Shown one piece after another: positions 39,197 to 46,724 of a stretch of 64,000 bases of DNA. The notes under the pieces were generated by a model that saw nothing but the letters and a program-made list of their open reading frames with translations, searched no databases and had not been told where the DNA came from. Each line of letters begins with the position of its first letter. Within the stretch, counting starts at the first letter, position 1. The position numbers and the translations under genes are program-made. The stretch comes from an uncultured SAR86 cluster bacterium (lineage in GTDB: Bacteria > Pseudomonadota > Gammaproteobacteria > Magnimaribacterales > AG-339-G14). The stretch spans positions 124,001-188,000 of the forward strand of contig CACOBG010000001.1 in assembly GCA_902625415.1 (NCBI GenBank), read 5' to 3'.

Positions 39197-39685
39197 AGTC
39201 AAGCCAGCAAAAACACCGGCTACTAAATCATCTAAAACAATCCCAAAACCCGATTTAAATTTGTTATCAATAAAAGAAATTGGATGAGGTTTTAAAATAT
39301 CAAAAAAACGAAAAAGAAGAATCAAAATAAATGCCGCTAAATAAGACTCTTTTTGCCATTCTAGCGTTGAAAAATTGTATATTCCTAAAATAGGTATGAA
39401 TAAAAAAGATAGTCCTGACCCTGCTACCTCATCAATCACTATCATTTTGTGATCCTTCTCATCTAAATCTTTAGATACAATTTCACAAATAATTATTGAT
39501 ACAATAGAAAAAAAAATAAAAATAATAAAATAAAGCAAGAAACTAATCTGCGCATAAATTAAACCGAAAAATAAAAAAAGTGCTGCAAATGAACCCCAAG
39601 TTCCAGGAGCTTTAGGTAAAAGACCTACTCCAAAAAAAGTAGAGGATAAGTGAGAAAATTTTTTTAAATCTGGGAATTTATTCAT
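39161..39685 (-). CDS. pgpA: Phosphatidylglycerophosphatase A
   Basis: Membrane phosphatase that makes phosphatidylglycerol after PgsA. The 174 residues contain GLLPKAPGTWGSFAAL, IDEVAGSGLSFLF (usual form VDEVVGQ) and FRFFDILKPHPISFIDNK followed by GFGIVLDDLVAGV, all PgpA hallmarks, with about three to four membrane helices. It overlaps the preceding thiL by 8 bases and the convergent dxs by 36 bases. The thiL-pgpA pair is conserved in gammaproteobacteria. Confidence 0.95.
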   Translation of the reverse strand: MNKFPDLKKFSHLSSTFFGVGLLPKAPGTWGSFAALFLFFGLIYAQISFLLYFIIFIFFSIVSIIICEIVSKDLDEKDHKMIVIDEVAGSGLSFLFIPILGIYNFSTLEWQKESYLAAFILILLFRFFDILKPHPISFIDNKFKSGFGIVLDDLVAGVFAGLTLLGGNFFFQIF

Positions 39686-40631
39686 GATTTAAGTGATTAT
39701 AACTTTTTCTCTTCAATTGAATTTCTTTAGTTCCTTGAAAAATCTTTATTCCTTTATCTCTAGTGATTGTTCCAATTTTGAATTTTTTAATTTTTAGCTT
39801 TTTCAAGATTCCGTCTAGTGTGGTCTCTTTATTTTTAGGGACAGTAAAACAAAGTTCATAGTCGTCACCCCAAGTTAAGGCATCTTTAAAGGATCCTTCG
39901 TGAGGTATCGAATCAACATAAATTCTTGCCCCCAATTTGCTTTGCTGACAAATATGTCCTAAATCTCCAATCAAGCCGTCCGAAATATCAATGCAACTAT
40001 TAGCAATTCCACTTAAATTTTTTCCAAGCGTAGTCTGAATCTTGGGTTTGAGAAACTTGTTGCGGTATTTTTTTTCTAATGAACTAAGGTTTTTTTTCTT
40101 TGACTTTATTACCTTCAATCCTAATTTGGCAGTGCCCAAAGTACCGCTGACATATATAGCGTCTCCTTCTTTCGCTCCATGCCTAGACAGAAATTGATCA
40201 GAATTAATTTCGCCACATACACCCACCGAAACAGAACATTCTTTTCCTTTTACTAAGTCTCCCCCGATAATCGGTACTTGATATTTTCTAGTGAAAAGTC
40301 TCACACCTTTAGCAAATTCTTGTAACCAGCTGATCTCTTTGCTTGGCGTTACAAGGCTAATAGAAAGCCATTTAAGAGTCCCTCCGCAGGCTGGAATATC
40401 GCTTACTGCAACAGAGCAGGATCTGTAAGCAATTAGATCGGGTGCTAAATCTTTAGGAAAATGAATATCAGAAACTGAGACGTCCGTAGAAAAAATTAAA
40501 TCTGTATATTTTGTCGAGAAAAGACCAGCATCGTCACCTGGCCCAATCAAAATTCCTGAGGAGTCGTTATATTGACTCCCCAAGTTTTTAAAGTATTTTT
40601 GAAGGACTAAAAATTCATCCGATTCTTTCAT
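39678..40631 (-). CDS. thiL: Thiamine-monophosphate kinase
   Basis: Makes thiamine diphosphate from thiamine monophosphate. The 317 residues carry IGPGDDAGLF, STDVSVSDIHFP, AVSDIPACGG, IIGGDLVKGKE, DISDGLIGDLGHIC and WGDDYELCFTVP, the AIR synthase-related ATP-binding pattern with its metal aspartates. No ribosome site precedes the ATG; instead the start codon sits in the 7-base loop of a perfect 10-bp hairpin (40617-40643). It begins 18 bases after the thiolase stop. It normally follows nusB, which here is near 51.5 kb. Confidence 0.95.
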   Translation of the reverse strand: MKESDEFLVLQKYFKNLGSQYNDSSGILIGPGDDAGLFSTKYTDLIFSTDVSVSDIHFPKDLAPDLIAYRSCSVAVSDIPACGGTLKWLSISLVTPSKEISWLQEFAKGVRLFTRKYQVPIIGGDLVKGKECSVSVGVCGEINSDQFLSRHGAKEGDAIYVSGTLGTAKLGLKVIKSKKKNLSSLEKKYRNKFLKPKIQTTLGKNLSGIANSCIDISDGLIGDLGHICQQSKLGARIYVDSIPHEGSFKDALTWGDDYELCFTVPKNKETTLDGILKKLKIKKFKIGTITRDKGIKIFQGTKEIQLKRKSYNHLNHE

Positions 40632-40649: not shown

Positions 40650-41843
40650 TTAAGAATTGTAAGCTTCAAAGAGGCCTGTGGCTCCCATACCACCACCAAC
40701 ACACATAGTTACGATACCGTATTTACCGCCTCTTCTATTGAGTTCTCTAGCAACATGGCCTACTTGGCGCGAGCCTGTCATACCAAAAGGATGTCCGATA
40801 GAAATAGAACCACCATTGACATTTAGTTTGTCACTTGGAAGGCCGAGCTTATCTCTGATATAAACTACTTGAGAAGCAAATGCTTCATTAAGCTCCCAAA
40901 GATCGATATCTTCTAGTTTTAAATCAGCTGATTTTAAAAGCTTAGGAATGGAATAAACAGGACCAATTCCCATTTCATCCGGTTGACAACCGACCACTGT
41001 AAAACCTCTGAAATAAAGTTTTGGTTCAAGTCCTAATTCTTTAGCTTTGTCTTCACTCATCACCAAAGTAACTGATGCACCATCGGATAATTGCGAGGAA
41101 TTTCCAGCTGTTACTGACCCATTCTCAGGATCAAAAACAGGTTTCAAGGAAGATAGACCTTCGATAGTAGTTTCTGGACGGTTACAGTCATCACGATCTA
41201 CGGTTACTTCTACGTCTTTTTCCTCTCCGGATTCTTTGTTGACCAATTTCATTACAGTATCCATTGGCACAATTTCATCATCGTAGTAGCCTGCTTCTTG
41301 TGCAGCTGCTGTTCTTTGTTGACTGGATAAAGCATACTCATCTTGAGCTTCTCTGGTGACGTTGTAACGCTTAGCTACACATTCAGCAGTTTGTCCCATA
41401 GCGTGGTAAATTCCAGGAACGTCAGCGGCAAGCTTGTCATTTACATACATGTGCATGTTGGTATTACCCTGGGTAGTGGATATTGACTCCACACCGCCTG
41501 CAATAATGCAATCGCTAAAGCCACTTTGAACTTGAGTAGCTGCCATAGCAACAGTTTGCAATCCAGACGAACAATATCTATTCACAGTTGTTCCTCCAAC
41601 TTCAATTGGTAAATTGGACAACACTGCAACATTTCTTGCTATGTTATGTCCTTGGGCTCCCTCTGGTGCTCCGCAACCCAATATCATATCTTCCACCATA
41701 GAGGGATCCAGTCCTGGATTTCTCTCTAAAAGCGCATTTACTAGGTGGGCTGTCATATTGTCGGCTCTAGTTTGATTAAAACCTCCTCTGAACGATTTAG
41801 CTAATCCAGTGCGGACGCTATCAACGATTACTACGTTTCTCAT
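40650..41843 (-). CDS. Acetyl-CoA acyltransferase (thiolase)
   Basis: Type II thiolase of 397 residues, biosynthetic or degradative. Acylation cysteine 91 is in VNRYCSSGLQTVAMA; the catalytic histidine lies in NVNGGSISIGHPFGMTGSR and the second cysteine in IVTMCVGGGMGATGLFE; NEAFASQV is also present. This pattern fits acetyl-CoA C-acyltransferases of fatty-acid degradation (FadA/FadI-like) or acetoacetyl-CoA thiolases, which are hard to separate by eye. It has its own promoter and a good AGGAG ribosome site. No beta-oxidation partner gene lies beside it; an acyl-CoA synthetase is at 56.8 kb. Confidence 0.92.
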   Translation of the reverse strand: MRNVVIVDSVRTGLAKSFRGGFNQTRADNMTAHLVNALLERNPGLDPSMVEDMILGCGAPEGAQGHNIARNVAVLSNLPIEVGGTTVNRYCSSGLQTVAMAATQVQSGFSDCIIAGGVESISTTQGNTNMHMYVNDKLAADVPGIYHAMGQTAECVAKRYNVTREAQDEYALSSQQRTAAAQEAGYYDDEIVPMDTVMKLVNKESGEEKDVEVTVDRDDCNRPETTIEGLSSLKPVFDPENGSVTAGNSSQLSDGASVTLVMSEDKAKELGLEPKLYFRGFTVVGCQPDEMGIGPVYSIPKLLKSADLKLEDIDLWELNEAFASQVVYIRDKLGLPSDKLNVNGGSISIGHPFGMTGSRQVGHVARELNRRGGKYGIVTMCVGGGMGATGLFEAYNS

Positions 41844-41946: not shown

Positions 41947-44900
41947 TTAGAAATCAATTCCAAAAGACATACCCCAAGATCTAGGCTCTCTTAAACTTAT
42001 AGCGCTGAAGAAACCTTGGGAAGAAGCTGATAAGCCCTTTCCAGTGATGTTTCTTTCGTCGGTTAAGTTTTGAACATAGAATCTGATATTCCAGTCAGCA
42101 TCGGTTGGAACAATTCGTAATGAGAAGTTCCATTCGTCCCAAGCAGCTATTTTATCGGCCTCTATATTGTACAAACCTTGGTAGAAATCACTTTGATAGT
42201 AATAATCAAGTCTTGGAGTGATTTCTAGGTTACCTGCTTGTGCAGTATAACCAATCCCCATTGAAACAGTTAAATCAGGGAAAGGCATTTCATTACCAGT
42301 AATTGGGGTTGGAAGACCGGTAGAAACAAACGAACCTTTTTGAGTAAGTGTAGTTACACATTCTTCATCCGTACCAAACTTAACTTCTCCTGCACTTCCC
42401 GCAACAGTTCCAGCACTATCTGCATGGTCATTCATAGCAGTGAACAATTTACATATTCCATCAGTTTGTTGTCCGGAACCTGTTCCTCTTACTATGATTG
42501 AAGGAAGTAAAGTACCCTCAGTCGAGTGTGTTCCCAAGGCTGAATTAATAGGTGAGTAAAGTAAAGTTTTACCAGTAGCTGGAGCACCAGCAGTAGCATT
42601 TGCAGGATTACCAATACAAGTTTGCGGTAGACCAGGACTTAGGTTGCTCAACATGTGACAAACCGTACCTTTTTCACCATACGCCGTGGCATGCGCACTA
42701 AACTCAACTGGAATGATAATTGTAGCGAGATCCGTAGATGTTAACTTAAGACCTGAAGAACCTCTTGCGGTTCCATTATCACATCCACCTGCCCATTTAT
42801 AACCATTACCAAGCTCGACGTTTGCTGCAGCAGTTAGGTCAGGAGCATCTCCGCTACCTGTTGTGGTTGAACAATTTAAAGCAAATGCGAGCTCATTTCC
42901 TAGAGCTCCCTGAGTTTTGTCAGCTCCTGATAATTGGACAGCAGAAGGAGTAGCTCCCAGTCCTGCTCGAGTTGCCAATATATCCATTACTCTCATAGAA
43001 GTGACGCCCAACTCATCTTTTTTAATTAGATAAGTATTTGCTTGTTGACCTTTAGCAGCATGCCAATTTTTGGATTCAGCCGTACCAGCATAATGTCCAC
43101 CAAGGTCAGCCGGGTTGATAAGTTCTTTAGTACCAATTTCAGATGAAATATAACTCATCATGAAATTAAAGGTAAGACCAGGAACTGTTGGAGGATTAAG
43201 TAGTAACTCCAACTCAGCTCCATAGTTTTCTACTGGCATACCTTCGTTAATTCCGGTTTCATTCCTAATGACACTTAAATGATAATTATCAAAGTCGTTG
43301 TAGTAAATTGAAGCATTAGCTACCAATCCGACTTCTGGAACGGTTGCTTTTACACCAAACTCTAAAGCGTCAACTTTCATTTCATCAAAAGTAATAGGAG
43401 TGTTAGGGAACCTTGAAGCATCAAAAGGCGGGTTGAACCCTCCCCCTTTGAAACCTGTAGAGTAACTCATGTAGAAAAGCGTATCGTCGTTTATTTGATA
43501 ATCCCAAACAAAACGTCCAGTTGTATTCGTAAAGGATTTCACAGGTTCTACACCTACATTCTTATAGTCAGCGTTAAGTTCAGGCAAACCTCGAAGACCA
43601 ACTGAACCGTTAACCGAATTAGGCGCACCCATTCCAGGGGCAACACCAACCCTTTGTCCAATTGTGTTGGCGTGATCTTCAGTTACACCACCAGTAAAAC
43701 AAGCAGGATTGTATGTTGTTGTAAACAAGTTAAGAACATTTGCTACACCACCTGCTGCAATAGCACCGGAAGTTCCATTATCTTGGATACCACAAAGGGC
43801 AGCTGAGCTGTCAACATCGGTCGGGAGACCATTTGTTCCATCAAGAGGATTCCAAGCAGAAACTAAAGGAATTTTGTAAAAGTAATTATTAACTTTTACC
43901 TCTTTGGTATCTTCTGTGTATCTCAAACCTAAAGTAAGTTTGTGTTGATCGTTTACATCAAAGTAAAACTCGGTAAATAGTGCTTGTGCGTCTAAGGCAT
44001 AAGTATCCGTTAAACTTTGGTAGTGCTCTGAATACAACCCATCTACTCTTGCAACGATATCTCTCGCAACAGTCGCAGCCGAAGGTGCTGTTGAGTTGTT
44101 TTTATAAAGTCCAGCATCAATGAATTGTTGACCTGCAGCTATAAGTAGATTTCCGGTTGCAATATTAGTTGGGGAACAAATCGTAGAGCCCAATGCCACA
44201 GCATGAGGAATTACATCACCCGCCTTACCCACATTAGGCACATCAACAGGTAAAGTAGTAGATTCCGTACAAGCTATCAACGTATTGAAAGATGTTCTGG
44301 TTGGACCAGTAATCGCAGTCGGAGCGTCTATTCCATTCATGGTGATACCCGTTGCGTATACATCATAGAAAGAACTGGAACTGTTGGAAATGTCAATCGC
44401 TCCAATTAAGAAATTAAATGGACCATCCAAATCGGATTGGAATTTCATCTCGATTGATTTTGATCTTGCATCAGATTGTGAAGCGTCACCACTGACTGGA
44501 TGTTCAAAGTATCCTGCGATACCTGCTCCACCAGGACAGAAAGAAGCATCTTTCATTGTGAACATATCACATTCGGGTTTGATTATTCTGTTTGAATAAC
44601 CTAAAGGTAGCCCTTTATTTCCGGAAGCAGCAACACCTGCTTGTGGTTGGGCCAAAGCACCAGCTGAGAATCTTATGTTTGTAGTTTCTGTTGATGCAGA
44701 AATTGTATCTCTGTAAAACTGTCTGCGATTGTCAAGGTAGGAAATTGACAAAGAACCTTGATCAAAAACTTTTTCTAAACGAAGCTGACTAGTAGATTCT
44801 TGGTTATCGTGTAAAGGGGATCTGATAACGTTGGATTCAAAAAAATCTTTTGGTTTATTTTTTCCAGTATCGATGAAAGTTGCTGGGACACCAGTTGGGA

Positions 44901-45858
44901 CATAAACTCTTCCACTTCCAGCGGCGCCATTTGCACCCACTTCAGCAGTATCTGGAAGATAAAAACCAGCCAAAGTTCCTCCTAAAGTAAGAGGTACAGT
45001 TGAACCAGTTGACATCGGGTGAACTGAATGAAAACTTTGCGTCCCACCGATCACACAACCTTGAACTAAATTACCACCGACCTCACAGAAAGCACCTTGC
45101 CTTTGTGTTCTTGCTGATTCCTCATCATAAGCTTGATGCATAAAATCTATAGTAAGATCGTCATCGGCTTCCCATCTGAATGATGCACGCCACATGTAAG
45201 AGTCTCTGTCATCGAAGCCGTCTGCTGCTGCTGAGTTAAGGTTTTTATTAACACCATCTCTTTCGTAATTGGAAAGAGCAAAACGAGCTCCTAAAGTATC
45301 GCTGATTGGGATATTGAGCATCATTTTGACCATCTTTTCATTGTCAGCACCGTACTGAATATCTGCTCTACCTGAAAAAGCATCAAGATCAGGAACGGCA
45401 GTAATCAAATTCACAACACCACCAGTTGAGTTCCTTCCAAATAAAGTACCTTGTGGACCACGGAGAACCTCGATTCTTTCCATATCTAGAAAACCAATCT
45501 CATTTGTAGAAGTGTTTCCTAAAGGAGCACCATTAATGTGCATCTCGACACCAGCGTCGCCACTAGCGGCTGTTAAAAAGTTTGTGATACCTCTAATTGA
45601 AAATCCACCGCCACTAAAGGAGTTTGATGAATAAGAAAGTCCTGGAACTTGCAATTGAAGATCACTTGCATATTCAATTTGACGGTCGCCTAAAACTTCA
45701 TCGGTGAAAGCGGATACTGAAATTGGTACATCTTGAAGACTTTGTTCAGTTCTTTGTGCCGTAACAATAACTTCTTCAATGGTAGATTGCGTAAATGCTG
45801 TGATGGATAGAAAAAACGACCCAACAACAGCCAAGCTTAGTTTAAGAAATTTACTCAT
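41947..45858 (-). CDS. Very large TonB-dependent outer-membrane receptor
   Basis: A 1303-residue receptor, against about 650-950 for most of the family. A signal peptide (about 1-24) is followed by a TonB-box-like IEEVIVTAQR, the plug domain (about 37-165; DLQLQVPGLSYSS, FSIRGITN, ERIEVLRGPQGTLFGRNSTGGVVNL) and a beta-barrel ending in SWGMSFGIDF, with the usual C-terminal Phe. The extra length lies in extracellular-type insertions (for example about 500-620 and 950-1180), rich in Gly, Ala, Thr and scattered cysteines. Substrate is unknown. A strong ribosome site (GGGGAGGA), an upstream nested palindrome and a private terminator show an independently controlled, highly expressed gene. Large receptors of this kind are prominent in SAR86-like marine bacteria. 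Confidence 0.95.
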   Translation of the reverse strand: MSKFLKLSLAVVGSFFLSITAFTQSTIEEVIVTAQRTEQSLQDVPISVSAFTDEVLGDRQIEYASDLQLQVPGLSYSSNSFSGGGFSIRGITNFLTAASGDAGVEMHINGAPLGNTSTNEIGFLDMERIEVLRGPQGTLFGRNSTGGVVNLITAVPDLDAFSGRADIQYGADNEKMVKMMLNIPISDTLGARFALSNYERDGVNKNLNSAAADGFDDRDSYMWRASFRWEADDDLTIDFMHQAYDEESARTQRQGAFCEVGGNLVQGCVIGGTQSFHSVHPMSTGSTVPLTLGGTLAGFYLPDTAEVGANGAAGSGRVYVPTGVPATFIDTGKNKPKDFFESNVIRSPLHDNQESTSQLRLEKVFDQGSLSISYLDNRRQFYRDTISASTETTNIRFSAGALAQPQAGVAASGNKGLPLGYSNRIIKPECDMFTMKDASFCPGGAGIAGYFEHPVSGDASQSDARSKSIEMKFQSDLDGPFNFLIGAIDISNSSSSFYDVYATGITMNGIDAPTAITGPTRTSFNTLIACTESTTLPVDVPNVGKAGDVIPHAVALGSTICSPTNIATGNLLIAAGQQFIDAGLYKNNSTAPSAATVARDIVARVDGLYSEHYQSLTDTYALDAQALFTEFYFDVNDQHKLTLGLRYTEDTKEVKVNNYFYKIPLVSAWNPLDGTNGLPTDVDSSAALCGIQDNGTSGAIAAGGVANVLNLFTTTYNPACFTGGVTEDHANTIGQRVGVAPGMGAPNSVNGSVGLRGLPELNADYKNVGVEPVKSFTNTTGRFVWDYQINDDTLFYMSYSTGFKGGGFNPPFDASRFPNTPITFDEMKVDALEFGVKATVPEVGLVANASIYYNDFDNYHLSVIRNETGINEGMPVENYGAELELLLNPPTVPGLTFNFMMSYISSEIGTKELINPADLGGHYAGTAESKNWHAAKGQQANTYLIKKDELGVTSMRVMDILATRAGLGATPSAVQLSGADKTQGALGNELAFALNCSTTTGSGDAPDLTAAANVELGNGYKWAGGCDNGTARGSSGLKLTSTDLATIIIPVEFSAHATAYGEKGTVCHMLSNLSPGLPQTCIGNPANATAGAPATGKTLLYSPINSALGTHSTEGTLLPSIIVRGTGSGQQTDGICKLFTAMNDHADSAGTVAGSAGEVKFGTDEECVTTLTQKGSFVSTGLPTPITGNEMPFPDLTVSMGIGYTAQAGNLEITPRLDYYYQSDFYQGLYNIEADKIAAWDEWNFSLRIVPTDADWNIRFYVQNLTDERNITGKGLSASSQGFFSAISLREPRSWGMSFGIDF

Positions 45859-45902
45859 TTAGAATCCTCCCCTAATGAGTTGATAATTATTTCGTGAGAA
45901 AT

Positions 45903-45952
45903 CTAAGCTTAAATAATCAAGTGAAATATATAACTTTCACTTATAAGCTTAG
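45903..45952 (-). repeat. Nested palindrome upstream of the TonB receptor
   Basis: Outer arms CTAAGCTTA (45903-45911) and TAAGCTTAG (45944-45952) are perfect reverse complements; inside them AAGTGAAA (45919-45926) and TTTCACTT (45935-45942) form a second perfect pair around an 8-base loop. Seventeen paired bases in 50, in a 212-base gap that separates the receptor gene from nth. It lies about 30 bases before the ribosome site (minus-strand GGGGAGGA, plus coordinates 45866-45873). It could be a dimer operator or an mRNA leader structure; the rest of the gap shows no further clear signal. Confidence 0.7.
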
Positions 45953-46054
45953 GGATTCTCCCCCTATACCAATCGATAATACCTTTTTTTGTCTCTACTG
46001 CAACCCTTAAAAGTTAAAAAAATAATATCCCTACAACAAAAAAGAAATTTAATC

Positions 46055-46060
46055 TATATT
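46055..46060 (+). promoter_or_regulatory. nth -10 element
   Basis: TATATT ends 10 bases before the nth ATG. No ribosome site lies between, so the transcript would be leaderless or nearly so. No clear -35. Confidence 0.35.
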
Positions 46061-46070
46061 GGAATTCTAG

Positions 46071-46724
46071 ATGAATAAAAAAGAACGAGCTCTGTTCATA
46101 GAAGCAAAACTCAACGAGCTTTTTCCTAGGCCCAAAGCGCCACTTAACCATACCAATGCCTTTACTCTTTTAATAGCAGTTCTATTAAGTGCACAAACAA
46201 CAGACAAAAGGGTCAATGTCGTCACTAAAGAACTTTTCAAAAAGGCGCAATCTGCCAAGGATATGTTAAAACTTGGTGAACAAAATGTTTATCAATTTAT
46301 TAAGACTTGTGGCTTAGCACCAAAAAAAGCCAAAGCAATAATCGAAACTTCAAAAATCATCGAAGAAAAATACAGTGGCGAAGTTCCTAATGAGTTAGCT
46401 TTGTTGGAAGAGTTACCCGGAGTTGGTCATAAGACAGCATCGGTCGTTGTCAGTGAATTTTTCAATAAGCCGGCTTTCCCTGTAGATACGCATATTCATA
46501 GACTGGCCCAAAGATGGGGACTTTCCAATGGAAAATCAGTAAAACAAACCGAGGAAGATTTGAAATCTCTTTTCGACGAAAGCAAATGGCGAGATCTGCA
46601 CCTACAAATTATCTTTTATGGCAGAACATTTTGTTCGGCAAGAGGCTGCGATGGCACAACATGTTTTATGTGCAAAAGTTTATATCCTAATAGAAAAAGA
46701 AGAATTAAAACTTTAAAAGCTTAA
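46071..46724 (+). CDS. nth: Endonuclease III (base-excision DNA glycosylase/lyase)
   Basis: Removes oxidized pyrimidines and cleaves the abasic site. The 217 residues carry helix-hairpin-helix ELPGVGHKTASVV with catalytic Lys121 and the catalytic aspartate at 139 in PVDTHIHRLA (E. coli Lys120 and Asp138). The C-terminal cysteines are at 188, 193, 198 and 201 (FCSARGCDGTTCFMC). E. coli spacing is C-x6-C-x2-C-x5-C; here it is C-x4-C-x4-C-x2-C, so the 4Fe-4S cluster binding, if kept, is arranged differently. The rest of the protein is normal. Confidence 0.93.
   Translation: MNKKERALFIEAKLNELFPRPKAPLNHTNAFTLLIAVLLSAQTTDKRVNVVTKELFKKAQSAKDMLKLGEQNVYQFIKTCGLAPKKAKAIIETSKIIEEKYSGEVPNELALLEELPGVGHKTASVVVSEFFNKPAFPVDTHIHRLAQRWGLSNGKSVKQTEEDLKSLFDESKWRDLHLQIIFYGRTFCSARGCDGTTCFMCKSLYPNRKRRIKTLKA

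Follow-up and report, generated by a model that had tools for sequence, protein, structure and literature searches.

A palindrome before a SAR86 TonB-dependent receptor gene probably marks a conserved, structured mRNA leader

A nested perfect palindrome upstream of a TonB-dependent receptor gene in SAR86, an abundant ocean lineage, is probably the core of a 5′-proximal hairpin (helices P0, P1 and P2) in the mRNA leader of the receptor. Together with a second hairpin at the start codon (P3), it would serve in the post-transcriptional control of receptor output. The original prediction had offered two readings of the palindrome, the operator of a dimeric regulator or a leader hairpin; the leader hairpin is supported by a promoter-like pair of elements upstream, by a tendency of the putative RNA to pair and by P3, whereas the dimeric operator is not. 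Judged by comparison of orthologous sequences, the promoter-like pair, the leader and P3 are supported as predicted features, and the pairing of the 5′ hairpin is supported but not proven. The element is probably a conserved, structured mRNA leader of an ordinary kind, without a match in Rfam.

The window, by which we mean the whole stretch of DNA analysed here, comprises 64,000 nt and corresponds to positions 124,001-188,000 of contig CACOBG010000001.1 (GCA_902625415.1, uncultured SAR86 cluster bacterium). The draft genome, in which it forms part of contig C1, measures 1.22 Mb and is 90.6% complete.

Results

The palindrome and its surroundings

The two concentric inverted repeats predicted at 45903-45952 are both exact: the arms of the outer repeat (45903-45911 and 45944-45952) match at 9/9 positions and those of the inner repeat (45919-45926 and 45935-45942) at 8/8. 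Taken alone, the outer 9-bp repeat is ordinary, as the window holds 41 perfect 9-bp inverted repeats inside 50 bases, compared with a mean of 27.6 and a maximum of 43 in 60 dinucleotide shuffles. By contrast, the nested 9-bp and 8-bp form occurs a single time in the window and in none of the 60 shuffles, and the pattern CTAAGCTTA-N20..40-TAAGCTTAG has one site in the 1.22-Mb draft genome. The AAGCTT within the outer arm, which had been proposed as a dimer site of its own, is indeed palindromic but carries little weight, with four occurrences of TAAGCTTA in the window against 2.2 expected.

The palindrome is located in the 212-bp gap between the receptor gene and the divergently oriented nth gene (46071-46724). 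Its predicted placement between the ribosome site and the promoter agrees with the features that we assign to this gap, which are listed below in the direction of transcription.

45998-46003, minus strand: -35 element TTGCAG, identical and with a 16-nt spacer in 16/16 orthologous leaders
45976-45981, minus strand: -10 element TATTAT within the conserved block GGTATTATC, identical in 16/16
45956-45960, minus strand: predicted 5′ arm of P0, the GAGAA of the conserved AGGGGGAGAA at the presumed RNA 5′ end (folds; fitted alignment)
45944-45952, minus strand: predicted 5′ arm of P1, CTAAGCTTA, the right outer arm of the original palindrome; conserved in sequence, (C/T)TAAGC(T/A)TA in orthologs
45935-45943, minus strand: predicted 5′ arm of P2, UAAGUGAAA, which includes the inner arm of the original palindrome (repeat and folds)
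45927-45934, minus strand: apical loop GUUAUAUA, with GUUAU invariant in 14 aligned leaders (alignment)
45918-45926, minus strand: predicted 3′ arm of P2 (repeat and fold)
45903-45911, minus strand: predicted 3′ arm of P1, UAAGCUUAG, variable in sequence and spacing among orthologs (repeat; ortholog comparison)
45896-45900, minus strand: predicted 3′ arm of P0, UUCUC, in most orthologs UUCUUC (folds; fitted alignment)
45874-45880, minus strand: predicted 5′ arm of P3, ACUCAUU, able to pair with the start codon region (7/7 pairs in 14/16 leaders, 6/7 in 2/16)
45866-45873, minus strand: Shine-Dalgarno sequence (SD) AGGGGAGG, flanked by the P3 arms (sequence; ortholog comparison)
45853-45859, minus strand: predicted 3′ arm of P3, AAUGAGU, with the AUG at 45856-45858 (pairing in 16 leaders)
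41947-45858, minus strand: TonB-dependent receptor, 1303 aa (Plug PF07715, 1.8e-18; TonB_dep_Rec_b-barrel PF00593, 8.5e-19)

We take the receptor to be the gene that the leader regulates. At 1303 residues it is long, and its Pfam matches span the plug domain and portions of the barrel. With regard to its substrate, NCBIfam matches fall far under the cut-offs and matches to solved structures lie mainly on the plug. Downstream follow a thiolase gene (40650-41843) and thiL (39678-40631).

A promoter-like pair and a probably transcribed leader

The 16 orthologous leaders share a common pattern, TTGCAG-16-TATTAT followed 8-10 nt on by AGGGGGAGA, and the order of promoter-like pair, leader and start codon is the same in 16/16. 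Beyond AGGGGGAGA there follow the conserved 5′ arm TCCTTAAGC(T/A)TATAAG, GUUAU, a segment that varies in length and sequence, a conserved UUCUUCAC-like block and, finally, ACUCAUU-SD-AUG. A scan with the sigma-70 consensus did not list the TTGCAG/TATTAT pair, because TTGCAG matches the consensus TTGACA in only 3/6 positions, and its one listed site, with 1.4 expected, is on the other strand; the promoter is therefore recognised via its conservation. Transcription would start at about 45967-45969. Since the palindrome lies downstream of the promoter-like pair, it is probably transcribed, within a receptor 5′ leader of about 110 nt. No intrinsic terminator or attenuator, i.e. a GC-rich stem with a trailing T run, was found in 45800-46120.

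Conservation and distribution of the leader

In a search with 241 bp of DNA, the leader was detected in 14 of the 16 genomes of the genus, the source genome included, each time before the same receptor and with 73-81% identity in the others. The two remaining genomes, G002 and G005 (drafts of 91% and 89% completeness), yielded neither the leader nor an nth match at E 1e-40, and no receptor ortholog was found in them, the best match having 27-28% identity over part of the query as compared with 67% in G003; the leader and the receptor therefore appear to occur either together or not at all, as far as drafts allow. A sequence-only model of promoter and leader found these 14 genomes again, with 15 loci at E 5e-28 or better; elsewhere it gave only weak matches, both within the family (40 genomes) and among 199 genomes drawn from across the order, where the best match outside the family has an E of 3e-4.

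On a broader scale, a scan for the promoter-leader pattern in a collection of 84,980 species returned 16 stretches, 15 of which represent the receptor-leader locus: 12 with both nth and the receptor, two with nth alone and one with the receptor alone where the stretch ends. The sixteenth, from Thalassobacillus, has neither gene and is unrelated. According to their titles, the records that carry the locus are single-cell and metagenome genomes, labelled as SAR86 cluster or as gammaproteobacterial. One of them, L105 (NZLM01000067.1), is instead filed as Euryarchaeota archaeon IN35, carries a SAR86-type nth (79% identity) and the receptor, and is probably mis-binned. This mislabelled contig and the 15 loci of the 14 genomes constitute the set of 16 leaders used throughout. 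In G001, the locus is found twice, on contigs C3 and C8, each time near a contig end and with small differences, probably reflecting two strains in one assembly; the near-identical second copy was omitted from alignments A1 and A2, which thus hold 14 of the 15 leader loci.

Fourteen weak matches (E 3e-4 to 0.08) were considered as copies of the leader outside the genus, and none was accepted. Eleven of the 14 lie in stop-free frames of at least 204 codons; the three outside such frames are L084 and L087, both judged by eye only, and L090, which is located in G005 and features TATTAT and TAGGGGGAGA. L090 is not a receptor leader, because the neighbouring receptor gene downstream is oriented towards it and presents its 3′ end. 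A further weak match, in G020, is the orthologous locus; it has a predicted P0-like helix of 8 bp, but its whole-leader fold (z -0.93) is no better than that of shuffles, and it was left out of the leader counts.

Absence of the motif from orthologous upstream regions, which had been named as an argument against the original prediction, applies to the exact palindrome, found in one of the 16 leaders, but not to the leader itself. In L109, a 9-bp repeat differs in its outermost pair, and elsewhere the longest perfect repeats measure 5-8 bp and lie in differing places.

Pairing of the predicted 5′ hairpin

In the window, the predicted P0+P1+P2 hairpin has a folding energy of -21.7 kcal/mol (z -3.4). 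Among 14 orthologs, the z-score of the whole-leader fold is below -1.5 in three, and most are unremarkable. A further comparison concerns the variable part: when this part alone was shuffled and the 5′ part kept fixed, the mean fold became weaker in 16/16 leaders, with p<0.05 in 6/16 and a Stouffer p of 5.6e-10 that is uncorrected for the relatedness of the leaders. A stricter shuffle, in which the sequence from the UUCUUC block onwards was also fixed, again gave weaker folds in 16/16, with p<0.05 in 5/16. For ten groups of leaders, which were picked by eye after the first shuffle test and without a tree, the stricter shuffle gave combined p values of 2.5e-5 (one representative per group) and 1.7e-4 (nine representatives, the window omitted), or of 6.1e-5 and, without the window, 4.0e-4 when the weakest member of each group was used. 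These comparisons suggest, if less firmly than those for the promoter and P3, that the 3′ arm changes in sequence and length yet tends to pair with the near-invariant 5′ arm.

Model R2 was derived from six of the 16 leaders only, because MAFFT mis-registered the group of L105, L109 and L112. In the alignment fitted to the model, which leans towards its own structure, 93.6% of the pair cells are standard, compared with 30.9-49.4% when the partners are slid. P0, the predicted closing helix GGAGAA/UUCUUC, is paired in 98.6% of cells over 15 distinct rows, and P1 is unpaired in 14% of its cells. Changes on both sides of a pair affect three pairs in five cells, and three pairs are reached by 5/500 shuffles; those in P0 hinge on the register of the L105 and L112 rows, and further pair types show no excess (10 compared with 9.8 in shuffles). 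A clean both-sided case is the outermost pair of P1, which is C-G in the window and U-A in 13 leaders. RNAalifold, applied to the MAFFT alignment, neither recovered the hairpin nor found any both-sided change. In L108, at both 37 and 20 °C, and in L114, at 20 °C, the predicted folds favour pairing of the UUCUUC region with the SD, likewise a point against the hairpin. The covariation among these leaders is modest.

It is very unlikely that the palindrome arose by chance and is functionless. Such an origin would fit its exact form being confined to the genome of the window, one of 16 leaders, and AT-rich DNA does yield many 9-bp repeats; it does not fit the absence of the nested form from the shuffles, the presence of the leader in 14/16 genomes or the retained tendency to pair.

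A more serious alternative, possible if of fairly low probability, is that the hairpin is a passive 5′-terminal stabiliser that only slows RNase access, with P3 being incidental. The model for this is Escherichia coli ompA: excerpts of PMC7509114 describe 5′ stem-loops, and the ompA leader among them, as mRNA stabilisers, and the ompA stem-loop likewise is a hairpin close to the 5′ terminus of an mRNA that encodes an outer-membrane protein and has a strong SD. The SAR86 hairpin also begins a few nucleotides from the presumed RNA 5′ end, and its pairing tends to persist as the sequence of the 3′ arm drifts. Unlike ompA, however, it has a 5′ arm and a loop that are conserved in sequence, and the start codon resides in a second predicted hairpin; the conservation of the 5′ arm, the GUUAU loop and the spacer from SD to start exceeds what a passive stem would need. 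We retain a control leader as the preferred reading.

In some folds of the bare leader, a 5′ GAAUCC paired with GGAUUC to mask the SD. We rejected this anti-SD pairing: with coding sequence included, its probability is no higher than 0.01, and several orthologs disrupt it with no compensating change.

The predicted start-codon hairpin P3

After the promoter, we judge P3 to be the firmest part of the predicted leader. Its arms ACUCAUU and AAUGAGU, the latter holding the AUG, would enclose AGGGGAGGAUUCUA and retain six or seven of the seven pairs in 16/16 leaders, the two losses both affecting a terminal pair. Changes on the coding side, which are seen in 4/16 leaders, remain pairable as G-U. 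A 7-nt complement of this kind within 30 nt upstream accompanies 12 of the 2030 ATGs in the window, that of the receptor included. In the window, P3 alone has a predicted energy of -7.2 kcal/mol.

A possible DNA operator and the Fur box

An operator, with a dimeric repressor or activator binding to the inverted repeat immediately after the promoter, is unlikely. The perfect nested inverted repeat itself speaks for such a site, as does the strong conservation of the 5′-arm block CTTAAGC(T/A)TATAAG, which in most leaders contains a CTTA-N6-TAAG dyad of its own; an operator confined to this block is conceivable. The exact outer repeat, however, is present in only one of the 16 leaders, its 3′ arm is not conserved, and the conserved blocks off the dyad (UUCUUC and ACUCAUU) would be left unexplained. 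Nor did the proposed search for the same motif upstream of other TonB receptors produce a recurrence: inspection by eye of the 250 nt before six other plug-domain genes revealed none, and no second copy of the element was found in the 90.6% complete draft, where a second match (E 0.17), judged by eye, resembles coding sequence.

The Fur-like regulator that had been suggested as an example is likewise not borne out. The Fur box is a 19-bp consensus, which we used for scoring, and its best match at the palindrome reaches 12 of 19. This resembles the scores of 10-13 before four of the six other plug-domain receptors, which lack a box, and differs from those of 16 and 17 before the other two. The latter two, strong Fur-like boxes, lie in the receptor upstream regions L094 and L097 (G000:C1, at ~264 and ~260 kb, respectively); Fur may therefore exert iron control in this genome, but not at the receptor of the window.

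Discussion

A possible mode of action

If the preferred reading of a post-transcriptional control leader is correct, the leader would set receptor output at the level of translation and/or mRNA stability. P3 would bury the start codon in a stem, with the SD between its arms, and so limit the entry of ribosomes. The 5′ hairpin, in turn, could protect the RNA 5′ end and/or hold UUCUUC in P0, off the purine-rich SD. The structure might be opened or closed by an sRNA, by a protein that binds RNA (CsrA, for instance), by temperature or by a ligand.

A bolder version, which we regard as an unlikely one, is a switch with two states specific to one SAR86 receptor: UUCUUC would pair either with the 5′ purine tract, forming P0 and leaving the ribosome site free, or with the SD, shutting it, and a signal or factor would read the 5′ arm and GUUAU.

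Several known systems resemble parts of this arrangement. In the Yersinia ompA RNA thermometer (PMC8245352, in excerpt), the ribosome entry region is likewise enclosed in RNA structure, whereas the SAR86 host is a marine plankton bacterium, its leader has an extra upstream hairpin and the comparison draws on predicted folds at 37 and 20 °C. Cobalamin and TPP riboswitches also provide structured leaders before TonB-dependent receptors (PMC2659441, in excerpt), and in Caulobacter, the repression of chvT mRNA by the sRNA ChvR is an instance of a TonB-dependent receptor controlled post-transcriptionally via its mRNA (PMC6237742, in excerpt). We rejected membership in a known Rfam riboswitch or leader family: at the gathering score, the window matches two tRNAs only, and at E values of up to 10, it has seven matches, all with E of at least 1.9, far under the families' own scores and none of them credible near the leader. 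Among the matches listed from the open-licence PMC literature, titles and the beginnings of abstracts describe no such SAR86 leader; it may be unpublished, although we do not intend this as a firm statement.

With its close conservation across the genus, the leader of this one receptor is well suited to probing and to reporter assays. Should it be a control element, it would indicate that nutrient uptake in a small genome is regulated post-transcriptionally; if it is a stabiliser only, an otherwise puzzling palindrome would still be explained.

CsrA and the sister genera

A more specific proposal, which we regard as unlikely, is that the leader is a CsrA/RsmA target, in which CsrA, bound to GGA both at the 5′ end and at the SD, would repress translation. 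The genome does encode csrA, and in 16/16 leaders the SD contains GGA twice and a further GGA lies close to the RNA 5′ end. However, the 5′ GGA overlaps P0, SDs contain GGA anyway, and a GGA-loop hairpin with at least five pairs is found in 0/16 leaders of the genus. The two-GGA spacing rule, as used for Alteromonas according to excerpts of PMC5864184, holds in three of the 16, the leader of the window not among them.

The syntenic receptor leaders of sister genera speak for the CsrA proposal. Genera g2 (six loci) and g4 (two loci) have a divergent receptor, with 36-42% identity over part of the query, and different leaders. GGA occurs in a hairpin loop of 5-7 nt in five of the six examined leaders of g2 and in three of the four of g4, as compared with 3-11% of same-leader shuffles. 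The g2 leaders stem from six of seven genomes, the seventh, G019, being without an nth match, and the g4 leaders are those four of eight fetched loci that have the required promoter pattern. Under the unlikely two-state reading above, these syntenic leaders may have swapped the device for CsrA-type hairpins.

The hairpins themselves, located in the nth-receptor gap of L071-L075, L118, L119 and L124, have AGGGAA or AGGAN-like loops on differing stems and resemble a CsrA/RsmA-type site. In a third genus, g3, the thiolase gene is the immediate neighbour of nth in 8/8 fetched loci, with no match to the receptor found there, which suggests that a receptor was lost or gained at the nth-thiolase spot.
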